Part shown: piece after piece, positions 19,772-23,126 of the stretch
How the letters are laid out: each line of letters starts with the position of its first letter
How positions within the stretch are numbered: the first letter of the stretch is position 1
DNA from: a virus
Direction: 5' to 3' (one strand)
Length of the DNA stretch: 24,247 bases
Virus record (IMG/VR): IMGVR_UViG_3300032282_000114
Span: 1-24,247 of that record
Position numbers and translations under genes: made by a program
Notes under the pieces: model-generated
Told to the model about the DNA's origin: nothing
Database searches by the model: none
Seen by the model: only the letters and a program-made list of their open reading frames with translations

Positions 19772-19986
19772 CAAAAGTCTATATCTTCTTCTTTAGGCTT
19801 TGGCGCGTTCATGTACGCCCAACCTGACCAACCACCTTCTACGATAGGCATACAGTCAAACTTCAGCATAGGGCCGTTCTTGGTCTCAATCACAGACCCA
19901 ATGCGTTGATAGCGGTTCTTTTCTTGACCGTCTTTGTTGGTGTATTTGCCTGTGATGACGCTGACTTCATATTGTGTTTTAGACAT
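19771..19986 (-). CDS. Small recombination-operon protein of unknown function
   Basis: A 71-residue protein: a beta-rich N-terminus (YEVSVITGKYTNKDGQEKNR; YQRIGSVIETKNGPMLKFD) and an acidic end (KPKEEDIDF). Its beta pattern and acidic C-terminal tail recall single-stranded-DNA-binding proteins, and similar small proteins accompany phage annealing/exonuclease pairs, but I see no definite SSB motif. The ATG overlaps the end of the YqaJ gene by 8 bases. Confidence 0.75.
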   Translation of the reverse strand: MSKTQYEVSVITGKYTNKDGQEKNRYQRIGSVIETKNGPMLKFDCMPIVEGGWSGWAYMNAPKPKEEDIDF

Positions 19987-20599
19987 TCTTTGCTTTCAAG
20001 TTGGTTAATTTATTTACTTTTTGGTCTAATTCTTTGAGGAATAGATTTACTTCTTCTTCTAGCGTTGCTACATAAGCTGCATCAAAATCGACACGTTTAA
20101 CAAACAACTGAAGGTCTTGGGGTAATCGTGGGTCAAAAGATACAAAGTCGCACCATTGACGTTCACAGCAACGCAACTGCCATTGAATTTGCGGAATGTA
20201 TTTGGATGGCACTTTGTCAGACAAAAGTGTTTCCACCATCGTATTTGTCTGTGGGCATTTCACTTCTAGGATTCCAAACAAACCCACAAGGGCATCTGGT
20301 GATGCGCCAGCCATTGCAATTTTGGGATGGTTAACAAACCCAACAGTTTCAGTCAAAAGATTATTAGCGTTCTCGTAACAACTGACTGCTAGTGGCTCGT
20401 TGTCTACACCCCATTGCATCGCAGAGTTTGTAAACGATTCACCCTGCGTATTGGTAAGTCGTTCACAGATTAGCTGTGCCATGTAGTTATCTCGACTAGC
20501 GGAATAGCCTGATTTGGTTTTAGCAATTACATCTGCTACCCGACTAGCGGTAACTTTGCCTAATCTGGCGGCAAACCATTCTTCTGTACGTTGTTCCAT
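19979..20599 (-). CDS. YqaJ/lambda-type exonuclease (viral recombinase)
   Basis: A 206-residue 5'-3' double-strand exonuclease of the YqaJ family (PD-(D/E)XK fold). Signature parts: QRTEEWFAARLGKVTAS (3-19) at the N-terminus, E68 in WGVDNEP, GASPDALVG with D102, LEVKCP with E112 and K114, and YIPQIQWQL (134-142). It would trim DNA ends to 3' single strands for annealing by the ERF protein encoded one gene upstream. Its ATG overlaps the preceding TAA (TAATG). Length and all key residues are normal for the family. Confidence 0.9.
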   Translation of the reverse strand: MEQRTEEWFAARLGKVTASRVADVIAKTKSGYSASRDNYMAQLICERLTNTQGESFTNSAMQWGVDNEPLAVSCYENANNLLTETVGFVNHPKIAMAGASPDALVGLFGILEVKCPQTNTMVETLLSDKVPSKYIPQIQWQLRCCERQWCDFVSFDPRLPQDLQLFVKRVDFDAAYVATLEEEVNLFLKELDQKVNKLTNLKAKNV

Positions 20600-20829
20600 T
20601 ATTGTTCCTTATAAGTTTTAATTAACTCTTGAAATATTGCATCTTTGCAAATATCAAACAATCTTTTTACTTCCGTTTTGCTTGTGCCATCAGAAAGAGA
20701 GGCCTCTGCCGCAACCATCAATGCACAAATTAAAACCAATTCTTTTTCAACATTACCTGGAAATAAACCCCATATTTCATCTAAGTATTGTTCTATTTCA
20801 TCTCTATCTTGACCAAGAAAAAGATTCAT
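20599..20829 (-). CDS. Small acidic helical protein between ERF and YqaJ genes
   Basis: A 76-residue, mostly helical, acidic protein (DEIEQYLDEIWGLFPGN near 10-26; a hydrophobic LVLICALMVAAEASL stretch at about 32-46 that is more likely a buried helix than a membrane segment). Not recognised. It begins in an ATGA overlap with ERF and ends in a TAATG overlap with the exonuclease, so its product is made alongside both. A partner or regulator of recombination is inferred from place only. Confidence 0.72.
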   Translation of the reverse strand: MNLFLGQDRDEIEQYLDEIWGLFPGNVEKELVLICALMVAAEASLSDGTSKTEVKRLFDICKDAIFQELIKTYKEQ

Positions 20830-21383
20830 TTCAAACTCCGTTTCATTAAGTCTTTAGCTGCCGTTACTGCTTCTAACCATTCTTTGTCTGTGCCTGCTGC
20901 CTTGTAAGCATCTTTGAACGCTGTTTGCAGTTCTTCTACATTCTTTGCGTCTTGTATAGCTGTAAGGTGGTCTTGCATGGCGTTGTGGTTAGCCTTGGTT
21001 TCCTTAGGCTTCTTAGATGCAGCGTTGCCATCGTCATCTTCTGGCGCTATACCGCAAGCCGACATAAGCGAATAGCGTCTGGCATAAGTCAACGCAGAAC
21101 CATAACCCTGTGGGTCGTGCTTGCTGGCTGGCACAAACAACTGACCGCAGTTCAAAGTCTCGCCAGATTCGTGGATAAATACAGTTTCAACAACAACCCC
21201 GTCAGGGTGTGGCTGATTCTGTTGAATAAGTGCTATGCCGTTGTCGTTTAAAGCGTCTATGACAGCTTCTACGCAAGCAGATAGGTCAGCGTAGCGTGAA
21301 CGAAAGTGTGGGTTTGTAGCAGTCTTTAAAGCAGGCCCAAACGCCTTTTGTGCTTTGACTAACGCTGTGGCAATGTTTTTCAT
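20826..21383 (-). CDS. erf: ERF-family single-strand annealing protein
   Basis: A 185-residue member of the ERF superfamily, named after P22 Erf (essential recombination function). It anneals complementary single strands in phage recombination and genome circularisation. Hallmarks: NPHFRSRYADL (24-34), GYGSALTYARRYSLMSACG (93-111) and the acidic APEDDDGNAA (113-122). The C-terminal 60 residues are a Lys/Glu/Ala helical region of lower conservation. AAGGAAA lies about 7 bases before the ATG, which overlaps the preceding stop (ATGA). P22 Erf is 204 residues, so length is normal. Confidence 0.92.
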   Translation of the reverse strand: MKNIATALVKAQKAFGPALKTATNPHFRSRYADLSACVEAVIDALNDNGIALIQQNQPHPDGVVVETVFIHESGETLNCGQLFVPASKHDPQGYGSALTYARRYSLMSACGIAPEDDDGNAASKKPKETKANHNAMQDHLTAIQDAKNVEELQTAFKDAYKAAGTDKEWLEAVTAAKDLMKRSLK

Positions 21384-21547: not shown

Positions 21548-21682
21548 TTATTTTCCTAACATAAGAATTGCTGTGATAAATCCTGCGACAAAGCCAGATA
21601 GCCAGAAAAGCACTTTGTCTGCAAGGGTCGTGGTGGTGTAAGGGCCATCAATGCCGTGTTGGGTGTATTTGTCGAGTTTCAT
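21548..21682 (-). CDS. 44-residue single-pass membrane protein
   Basis: It encodes MKLDKYTQHGIDGPYTTTTL, then ADKVLFWLSGFVAGFITAIL and MLGK: a polar N-terminus and one C-terminal transmembrane helix (about 24-42). AGGAAAA precedes the ATG, which overlaps the upstream TGA (ATGA). It ends exactly one base before the next ATG. Function unknown. Confidence 0.7.
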   Translation of the reverse strand: MKLDKYTQHGIDGPYTTTTLADKVLFWLSGFVAGFITAILMLGK

Positions 21683-21948
21683 GCGTTTTCCTGTTTAGAT
21701 TCGTAACGGGCAAGGGCGTAGTCAAGTGCATCGTTGTCGGCTTCTTCTTTGCAAGCCTTGGCGTATGCGCTTTCTAGGGTTTGGATTACTGTGTCGCGTA
21801 ACAGTTCGTGGATTTCGCCACCATTGACGTACACAAACCAAAGGTTGCCTGTATATGCCTCAAAGTAACATTCGAGGTCTTGACCAGGCACATCGTGATG
21901 CTCACAAATCATCTGGTCTAAGTCGTGGTGCTGCGTGGGGAATGTCAT
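21679..21948 (-). CDS. First gene of the leftward early operon, unknown function
   Basis: An 89-residue acidic protein, His/Asp/Glu-rich at the start (TQHHDLDQMICEHHD), with a beta middle (YFEAYTGNLWFVYVNGGEI) and a helical end (LESAYAKACKEEADNDALDY). Two Cys and four His in the first 27 residues could bind metal, but their spacing matches no motif I know. AAGGAAA sits 6 bases before the ATG, and a TATAAT box about 50 bases upstream gives a short leader. Confidence 0.72.
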   Translation of the reverse strand: MTFPTQHHDLDQMICEHHDVPGQDLECYFEAYTGNLWFVYVNGGEIHELLRDTVIQTLESAYAKACKEEADNDALDYALARYESKQENA

Positions 21949-21995
21949 AAAGTTTCCTTAAAAGACCCTTTTGCTAAATTGCTAGGGCATGAATA

Positions 21996-22009
21996 AATTA
22001 TAACCTAGG
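21996..22009 (-). promoter_or_regulatory. Leftward early promoter -10 box fused to operator-like element
   Basis: Read on the minus strand this is CCTAGGTTATAATT. It contains a perfect TATAAT (22002-21997) and half of a perfect 10-base palindrome AACCTAGGTT (22002-22011). The -35 region is weak (TTAAAA at 15-base or GTTAAA at 16-base spacing), which suggests an activator or a strong -10-driven promoter. It would drive the ten-gene recombination operon. Thirteen of 14 bases match the element at 22243-22256. Confidence 0.65.
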
Positions 22010-22057
22010 TTGTGTCTTTTTAACATCAATATAAAAATAAAAACCCTTATGTTGTTT

Positions 22058-22087
22058 TTGTGCAACTTAACCTAAGTCATGTAAAAT
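22058..22087 (+). promoter_or_regulatory. Candidate rightward promoter for the HTH gene, with internal operator
   Basis: TTGTGC (22058-22063), an 18-base spacer and TAAAAT (22082-22087) form a reasonable sigma-70 promoter. The spacer contains ACTTAACCTAAGT (22065-22077), an inverted repeat with ACTTA/TAAGT arms. Predicted transcription would start within a base or two of the HTH gene's ATG at 22095. Confidence 0.5.
22065..22077. promoter_or_regulatory. Operator-like inverted repeat
   Basis: ACTTAACCTAAGT, arms of five bases around ACC. Read on the other strand it shares CTTAGGTTA with the elements at 21996-22009 and 22243-22256. Likely binding site of the adjacent HTH protein. Confidence 0.6.
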
Positions 22088-22094
22088 TTATGCA

Positions 22095-22247
22095 ATGGAC
22101 AAACATAAATTCATTGCATTAGCAGGCTCACAGGGTGAACTTGCCAAACTTTTAGAGATAAGCCAAGCGGCTGTGTCTAAATGGAAAACAGTTCCAAAAG
22201 CAAGAATCTGGCAATTAAAAGTTTTACGCCCAAGTTGGTTTACTTAG
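22095..22247 (+). CDS. Small Cro/YdaS-like helix-turn-helix regulator
   Basis: A 50-residue DNA-binding protein, essentially just one HTH domain: AGSQGELAKLLEISQAAVSK (10-29) followed by WKTVPKARIWQL and RPSW. This pattern (a short helix, then A-x-LL-x-(I/V)-S-x-x-AVS-x-W with a VP-x-x-R turn) is that of DicC/YdaS-type Cro proteins. It should repress early promoters. There is no ribosome site ahead of the ATG and the predicted RNA start nearly coincides with it, so the message may be leaderless. The stop codon lies inside an operator-like element. A partner CI-type repressor is not in the window. Confidence 0.8.
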   Translation: MDKHKFIALAGSQGELAKLLEISQAAVSKWKTVPKARIWQLKVLRPSWFT

Positions 22248-22256
22248 GTTATAATT
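22243..22256 (+). promoter_or_regulatory. Rightward promoter -10 box fused to operator-like element
   Basis: CTTAGGTTATAATT with a perfect TATAAT at 22250-22255, overlapping the HTH gene's stop codon. A good -35 is not visible. It would drive the DUF1376 operon with a leader of about 95 bases. The 14 bases match the leftward element at 21996-22009 with one difference. Confidence 0.62.
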
Positions 22257-22272
22257 GCTTGAAACGAGGCTA

Positions 22273-22352
22273 AGTACGAAGTCATGAGCGTACTGAAAAG
22301 GGTTACACCTTCCCCTGCCTATGTTTCTTTCAAAGGTGCGTTAAAAAGGTAA
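22273..22352 (+). other. Leader of the replication operon: hairpin and possible 22-codon ORF
   Basis: A 6-base perfect stem AGTACG/CGTACT (22273-22278 with 22289-22294, loop of 10) holds in its loop the ATG of a small ORF at 22284-22352, encoding MSVLKRVTPSPAYVSFKGAL plus KR. A second weak stem CACCTT/AAGGTG pairs 22306-22311 with 22333-22338. The small ORF has only a poor ribosome site (GAGG, too distant). Its stop lies 6 bases before the next gene's ATG, whose AAGG (22346-22349) is inside the ORF. Leader peptide, structured leader and chance are all possible. Confidence 0.3.
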
Positions 22353-22358
22353 AACTCA

Positions 22359-23126
22359 ATGCACTATTACCAGTTCAACATTGGTGACTACATCAAGAAC
22401 ACTTTGCATCTTTCTCTCGAGGAAGACCTTGCATATAGGCGTTTACTTGATTTCTATTACGACTCTGAACAACCAATACCCAACGATATCCCAAAGGTTT
22501 CCCGTAGGTTAAGGTTGGGTTGTGATGTTATTCAATCTGTACTAGATGAATTTTTTGAATTGTCTAAAAATGGTTATAGAAATCACAGGGCAGATTTAGA
22601 AATTGCTAGTTACCAAGAATACATGGCTAAACAAAAAGCCAACGGTAGCAAGGGAGGAAGACCTAAAAAAACCCAACAAGAACTTACCGCTAACCCAGAC
22701 CAAACCCAAAATAACCCTAAACATGAACCACTAACCACTCCCATAAACCAAGAACCAGTTATTAAAGAAGGTAAACCTTCTTTGTCTGGAACTGCGTTCC
22801 CGCCATGCCCCCATACCGAGTTATTAAAACTATGGGGAAAACAATTACCGCACCTTACGCAGCCAAGAACATGGGAAGGCAACCGCCAAGCCAACATGAG
22901 ACAACGATGGATTCAAGCTGGCAAACCTTCTGCATATTCTCCAGAAGGCTACAAAACAACCGAGGAAGGGCTGAAGTGGTGGGACTCGTTCTTTGGCTAC
23001 ATTGCCAATGACACTTCCTTGGCTAAAGGGTTTGAGACCAAGGGCAGAACTTGGTTGCCAGACTTAGAGTGGGTGGTTAACGCTACCAATTTTCAAAAAA
23101 TCATTGATGGAAAGTACGCAAAATGA
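22359..23126 (+). CDS. DUF1376 (YdaU-like) replication-associated protein
   Basis: A 255-residue protein. The N-terminal 90 residues carry the DUF1376 signature: YYQFNIGDYIKNTLHLSLEE (3-22), then DLAYRRLLDFYYDSEQPIP (23-41) and a winged-helix-like remainder. A GSKGGRPKK basic stretch (96-104) and a Pro/Gln/Asn-rich linker (about 105-150) follow. The C-terminal part (about 150-255) has WWDSFFGYIA and the conserved-looking WLPDLEWVVNATNFQKIIDGKY end. DUF1376 genes normally sit where phage replication initiator (O/DnaD-like) genes do, so DNA-binding at the origin is the likely job. AAGG lies 9 bases before the ATG. The stop overlaps the next ATG. Confidence 0.85.
   Translation: MHYYQFNIGDYIKNTLHLSLEEDLAYRRLLDFYYDSEQPIPNDIPKVSRRLRLGCDVIQSVLDEFFELSKNGYRNHRADLEIASYQEYMAKQKANGSKGGRPKKTQQELTANPDQTQNNPKHEPLTTPINQEPVIKEGKPSLSGTAFPPCPHTELLKLWGKQLPHLTQPRTWEGNRQANMRQRWIQAGKPSAYSPEGYKTTEEGLKWWDSFFGYIANDTSLAKGFETKGRTWLPDLEWVVNATNFQKIIDGKYAK

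Follow-up and report, generated by a model that had tools for sequence, protein, structure and literature searches.

Gene order and the Cro protein

The window analysed here is the whole of a 24,247-base virus record (IMGVR_UViG_3300032282_000114) from an uncultured virus of bacteria. PHROG matches in the window include a major head protein, a head-closure protein and a DNA-ejection protein, and we read the virus as a P22-like podovirus. A gene for a small HTH protein sits between two operons. The leftward operon comprises, in this order, genes for proteins of 89, 44 and 55 amino acids, an ERF single-strand annealing recombinase (20826-21383, minus strand; PF04404, 4e-23), a 76-aa protein and a YqaJ-type exonuclease (19979-20599, minus strand; PF09588, 2.6e-25). 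Its first gene (89 aa, 21679-21948, minus strand), taken from the list of open reading frames, finds no family match in Pfam-type or PHROG searches. The rightward operon opens with a DUF1376 replication protein (primosomal-like; 22359-23126, plus strand; PF07120, 3.6e-22), which also matches PHROG primosomal families.

The gene between the operons (22095-22247, plus strand) codes for 50 amino acids and belongs by profile score to the P22_Cro family (PF14549, E-value 1.6e-10, 41 bits against a curated cut-off of 30.2). The best solved relative of the protein is P22 Cro (1RZS, E-value 2.2e-9). The 50-residue HTH regulator of the preliminary description is thus a Cro. Viral contigs hold 42 relatives of it; bacterial and archaeal genomes, scanned at one per species, yielded six distant ones only. 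After removal of the truncated L042 and the near-duplicates L013, L021, L022 and L024, 38 non-redundant loci including the window were compared, which are related by descent, so that counts over them are not independent.

Inverted repeats in the leftward and cro promoters

Three matching elements had been described around cro, and all three are confirmed by direct reading. Positions 21996-22009 are AATTATAACCTAGG on the plus strand and CCTAGGTTATAATT on the minus strand, positions 22243-22256 are CTTAGGTTATAATT on the plus strand, and 13 of 14 bases agree between the minus-strand element and the latter, with TATAAT present in both. The third copy of the core lies in 22065-22077 (plus ACTTAACCTAAGT, minus ACTTAGGTTAAGT) and includes CTTAGGTTA. 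By letters alone the 13-of-14 repeat is weak evidence, barely more than chance: simulation of 400 regions of 331 bp yields 14-mer pairs with at most one mismatch in 25 of them (two such pairs are present in the real one), and TTAGGTTATAAT with at most two mismatches has four matches in the window against 2.48 expected, a number equalled in 20 of 100 shuffles. The judgement therefore has to rest on the relatives.

With the relatives the unit becomes a 14-bp inverted repeat, offset by a few bases from the 14-mer first noticed. The search for further core sites that had been proposed was run; counts of the core barely exceed the shuffles, but a profile built from 37 relatives, with the window left out, ranks the three sites as the best places of the whole 24 kb: S1 (22000-22013) with 14.0 bits, S2 (22067-22080) and S3 (22239-22252) with 8.67 bits each. 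In simulated sequence sites of 14.0 bits appear 0.08 times per 24 kb (0.001 per 300 bp), those of 8.67 bits 2.7 times (0.033 per 300 bp). S1 is thus beyond chance, and S2 and S3 are notable for their clustering and position only; places with no presumed operator can also score about 8 bits, as the beginning of the replication gene does in L002 and L006. As a putative operator S2 has, beyond clustering and position, independent backing from the relatives.

S1 (ATAACCTAGGTTGT, unstranded) covers the leftward promoter. An inverted repeat like ATAACCTAGGTTAT lies on the -10 box of this promoter in 38 of 38 loci, these being the best matches of a consensus-anchored search with the site fixed beforehand, with 9 to 13 of 14 letters in agreement, and not perfect sites. 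An unsupervised motif search of the whole region caught coding sequence and low-complexity repeats, and the anchored search was used instead. A chance origin of the S1 repeat is ruled out by its conservation. The -10 box, TATAAT at 21997-22002 on the minus strand in the window, overlaps S1 and reads TATAGT in 20 loci, TATAAT in six, TATACT in four and otherwise in eight. A -35 element is recognisable in most relatives and weak in the window, and a sigma-70 consensus scan reports no promoter anywhere in the window. The proposed fusion of operator and -10 box is accordingly a constant feature of the recombination promoter, although the phrase "little-described switch" was too strong for the operators, since placing an operator on a -10 box is a usual way for repressors to work.

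The leftward transcript also begins with a short conserved hairpin-like stretch (21948-21996, minus strand), with arms CCC-GGG in 15, CCC-CGG in 13, CCG-CGG in five and CCC-AGG in four of 37 parsed loci (one locus unparsed). It is followed by a GUCUUUUAAGGA-like sequence and then by the first leftward gene.

S2 (TTAACCTAAGTCAT, unstranded) is located directly 5' of the cro -10 box; as the top score among 37 positions it has p about 0.015. In 35 of 38 loci the cro promoter holds a second operator copy that exceeds the 95% null, and in 33 this copy exceeds the 99% null, in line with the suggestion that cro has a control site of its own; the weak loci are L001 (5.5) and L011 (5.3), and L041 has none. 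Two registers occur, at about -28 or about -12 relative to the cro ATG. Operator, -10 box and start codon share bases in the -12 register, so that the S2 score there is partly forced. In each of the 18 loci of this register the 7 nt preceding the ATG finish like an operator (CTT, CCT or TTT); in the other 20 they mostly end in GC or CA, with TT in L023 and L038.

The cro -10 box is TAAAAT (22082-22087, plus strand), 7 nt before the ATG. A -10-like hexamer precedes the ATG by 7 nt in 28 of 38 loci and by 6 nt in ten, and a Shine-Dalgarno-like motif ahead of cro is found in none of the 38. The cro mRNA is predicted to be leaderless in all 38 loci, including the window, with its start at or beside the ATG.

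Between S1 and the cro ATG the spacing ranges from 65 to 118 nt, which rules out a fixed looping array. A second inverted repeat, TAGGGACTTTCCCTA-like, is present between S1 and cro about 50 nt before the ATG in 16 of 38 loci (e.g. L033, L034, L020), with a similar copy just after cro in L020-L022 and L031; the window retains only one half of it, ACCCTTATGTTG. A further inverted repeat, TGTTG-N6-TGCAA, surrounds the cro -35 region in the window (22050-22065) and in many relatives, several of which have TGTTGCTTGACTGCAACA there.

Cro is very likely the protein that binds these operators, because S1 and S2 vary together within one phage and with the recognition helix of its Cro. In the -12 register S1 and S2 of the same phage resemble each other, over interior columns, to a degree reached by 1 of 5000 shuffled pairings; in the -28 register the figure is 7 of 5000 for columns 8-14 and only 155 of 5000 over all columns. 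Cros whose recognition helix contains IKQPS have GCCTAT half-sites in seven of seven cases, and those with K29 (three loci: the window, L001 and L003) have GTT half-sites. We infer that Cro would bind the 14-bp repeat as a two-fold symmetric unit. Across 37 unique sites, operator positions 1 and 14 covary to an extent reached by 1 of 2000 shuffles, but the dyad covariation is weak among the 22 sites of the first set (positions 1/14, 510 of 2000; positions 4/11, 75 of 2000), and the 17 sites added later were picked for good score, a choice that may favour symmetry. The inverted repeats might instead be bound by a regulator of the host or by a phage repressor of CI type, lambda-type operators being common to CI and Cro; we consider this very improbable, given the covariation of helix and operator and the lack, in 19 records, of an S24 domain or any HTH_3-type match beyond cro, a lack for which a CI-binding site was also discarded as a candidate.

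The rightward promoter and its leader RNA

S3 (TTTACTTAGGTTAT, unstranded) combines one good half-site (AGGTTAT), fused to a -10 box, with a poor left half-site. The -10 box (TATAAT, 22250-22255, plus strand) lies 5 nt before a leader RNA and is placed by the gap conserved in related leaders, the consensus promoter scan being negative. At the S3 position the window scores 8.7, L001 8.4, L003 4.0 and L037 4.0 bits, and the site is operator-like only in the window and its nearest relative, L001; L003 shares the half-site AGGTTAT. Among the matches listed, the corresponding promoter of 77 other cro-carrying leaders reaches a best score of 0.7, and AGG[TC]TATA[AG]T occurs upstream of none of 118 leaders. 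Only about 20 of the Cros of those 77 leaders, counted by eye, have a recognition helix near that of the window; most have another one, and this operator sequence is therefore not expected there. S3 is possibly a lineage-specific operator.

The leader RNA (22261-22350, plus strand) resembles the int-alpA class (RF02996, 27.3 bits, E-value 0.0014, below the gathering score of 35.8, which L030, L032, L034 and L035 reach). The preliminary description missed this conserved structured element, which is a more unusual feature than the operators. It starts at the predicted +1 of the replication transcript, downstream of the S3 promoter, and consists of the helices P1 (22261-22270/22317-22327), P2 (22273-22278/22289-22294) and P3 (22300-22302/22312-22314). 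The P3 loop CACCTT (22306-22311) has a pseudoknot partner, AAGGTG, at 22333-22338, and its ACCTT also complements the ribosome-binding site AAGGT at 22346-22350. The R1 model gives the window leader 78.3 bits, the window being included in its training set. Leaders are found in 31 of 43 loci. P2 pairs at 6.64 of 7 positions against 4.80 with arms swapped (0 of 2000; 22 unique sequences), the middle pair of P3 is A-U, G-C or C-G in the same 22 sequences, and the P3 loop complements the downstream stretch at 5.81 against 4.44 positions when swapped (0 of 1000; 26 unique leaders). Covariation is thus seen in the helices and in the pseudoknot.

A pattern search of viral contigs returned at least 120 rows, 118 of them distinct after two duplicates were dropped. 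Among the matches listed, 98 of 118 leaders are preceded by a -10-like hexamer at a distance of exactly 5 nt, and the gene that most often comes next (41 of 118) begins MHYYQF; leader and -10 are kept, ahead of several different genes, in at least 118 contigs. Parsing succeeded for 102 of the leaders listed (16 of 118 were dropped as unparsed, duplicate or with no ATG at fitting distance). A loop complement of at least 5 bp is present in 99 of these 102, 12-18 nt (mostly 12-15) after CCTGCC, and a second copy in 42 of 102, with a mean second match of 3.77 against 2.47 swapped.

The class takes its name from a place between int and alpA and was reportedly described by Weinberg in 2017. The window leader has its layout, in which an outer helix encloses two hairpins, with the joints GAAAAG and CCTG, but opens a phage replication operon, and no integrase was found in the window record. 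Seven RF02996 loci from bacterial genomes, those parsed out of 20 (13 did not match the strict expression), share the loop-downstream pseudoknot (5.71 against 4.46; 1 of 1000), and in several of them a further copy is visible by eye close to the start codon that follows. RF02996 exceeds its cut-off in 34 of the 274 genomes searched from the taxonomic class that includes G019. In seven named phage loci and in 300 genomes from G019's order the R1 model finds nothing. The portions of the literature available list int-alpA by name in a table and a sentence, and no function for it was found in print there. A translational switch is one reading of the leader RNA; antitermination or a small RNA are others. 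Antitermination of the HK022 put type was considered, and a literature search for it in leader RNAs gave no match.

Other, longer structured-looking leaders with terminator-like ends lie downstream of cro in L007, L008, L033, L011, L013 and L036; those of L007, L008, L011, L033 and L036 have no Rfam match at gathering. In L004, L020, L021, L022 and L031 cro and the leader RNA are separated by an inserted small gene, whose product begins MKKA(L/I)I and resembles a signal peptide at that end.

Two alternatives bear on the replication promoter. S3 may be no operator at all, only a -10 box and some bases that happen to match where cro ends, maintained by the stop codon region and the promoter; its restriction to the window and L001, its poor left half-site and the results for the 118 and 77 leaders listed agree with this, but S3 keeps the same register to the -10 box as S1, matches S2 in score, and has AGGTTAT exactly in three loci that combine a K29 Cro with GTT half-sites, including L003 with a different leader RNA subtype. 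We rate this alternative at slightly less than an even chance. The replication operon may also be controlled mainly by the leader RNA, with Cro governing only the leftward operon and itself, a view with about equal odds for and against: leader and -10 are conserved across at least 118 contigs with several downstream genes and the operator S3 is not, but read-through from the cro promoter would still put the replication genes under Cro. The idea of one regulator for three units is partly supported. It appears right for two of the three sites, the recombination operon (38 of 38) and cro itself (35 of 38), and uncertain for the replication operon, where the case for control through S3 is weak and the site is absent from the 77 leaders; the fusion of operator and -10 box in both outward promoters would extend to the rightward one only in the window and L001.

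A probable circuit with Cro alone

Tyrosine integrase (PF00589) and S24 (PF00717) domains are found in none of the 19 records searched, i.e. the window and 18 others, 12 of which are 27-39 kb long, and which may be fragments. The sole HTH_3-type match, one each in 15 of the 19, falls in cro (positions compared by hand). With no integrase, S24 domain or outside HTH_3 match in these records, no lambda-type switch is visible. Cro operators in the leftward and cro promoters agree with a CI/Cro switch of lambda type; a cI-type repressor and an integrase were not found in the 19 possibly fragmentary records. The arrangement looks like a Cro-only shut-off rather than a lambda-type switch, as Cro alone can only lower early transcription while it accumulates.

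Taken as a whole, the explanation that we regard as probable is that a P22-like podovirus controls its early genes from this region by means of one small Cro, which would block the leftward promoter and its own through 14-bp repeats and possibly acts on S3, with the leader RNA as a likely second control point. Cro made early would shut off the recombination genes via S1 on the leftward -10 box and, bound to S2 in its own promoter, repress cro; the position of the sites suggests that repression would consist in blocking RNA polymerase. In the window and its nearest relative the rightward replication -10 box may have gained an imperfect operator, so that Cro may damp the replication genes there, not generally. 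The rightward transcript would begin with the pseudoknotted int-alpA-like leader, a second likely control point. A wider proposal, which we hold to be rather unlikely, is that early regulation in a large group of uncultured podoviruses, which seem to be obligately lytic, combines a lone leaderless Cro with an RNA switch at the replication +1, where the P3 loop would pair either with the first downstream copy (pseudoknot) or with the second copy over the ribosome-binding site and so gate translation of the replication genes; if true, this would give the int-alpA class a mechanism.

The operators point to a minimal Cro circuit that does without CI and can be read in 38 natural variants; as protein helix and operator change together in these, they are well suited to tests of Cro-operator specificity. 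The leader RNA ties the int-alpA class to a precise place, the +1 of a replication operon, to a pseudoknot and possibly to a switch at the ribosome-binding site, so that experiments can address the function of the class directly.

Titles and abstracts in the literature searched hold nothing matching Cro-only lytic phages. The lambdoid phages and P22 (Cro PF14549, PDB 1RZS; OL/OR) share with the window the Cro family, two-fold operators in divergent early promoters, and recombination genes to the left and replication genes to the right. In contrast to the lambdoid phages, the window has no cI beside cro, the 19 records searched show no integrase or S24 domain, each promoter has one operator where lambdoid OL and OR have three, and the operator has a different sequence. 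In the telomere phages PY54, phiKO2 and N15, Cro acts in immB on a single palindrome (16-18 bp), and the PY54 study (PMC4488713) reports a cro mRNA that is leaderless by RACE and a Cro said to repress cI, not itself; unlike PY54, the window has no cI, and its cro carries an operator of its own. The paaR2/ydaS region of CP-933P from E. coli O157:H7 likewise has a small YdaS/Cro regulator and divergent promoters and, according to PMC8630535, one leaderless regulator mRNA, but possesses a CI analogue (PaaR2) and YdaT. In Pantoea phage PdC23 (OL396571) GGAGG precedes the cro ATG, so that this cro is not leaderless, and the R1 model finds no leader RNA; like the window, PdC23 has no integrase match and carries an ERF operon to the left, a cro-like gene, and replication genes to the right.
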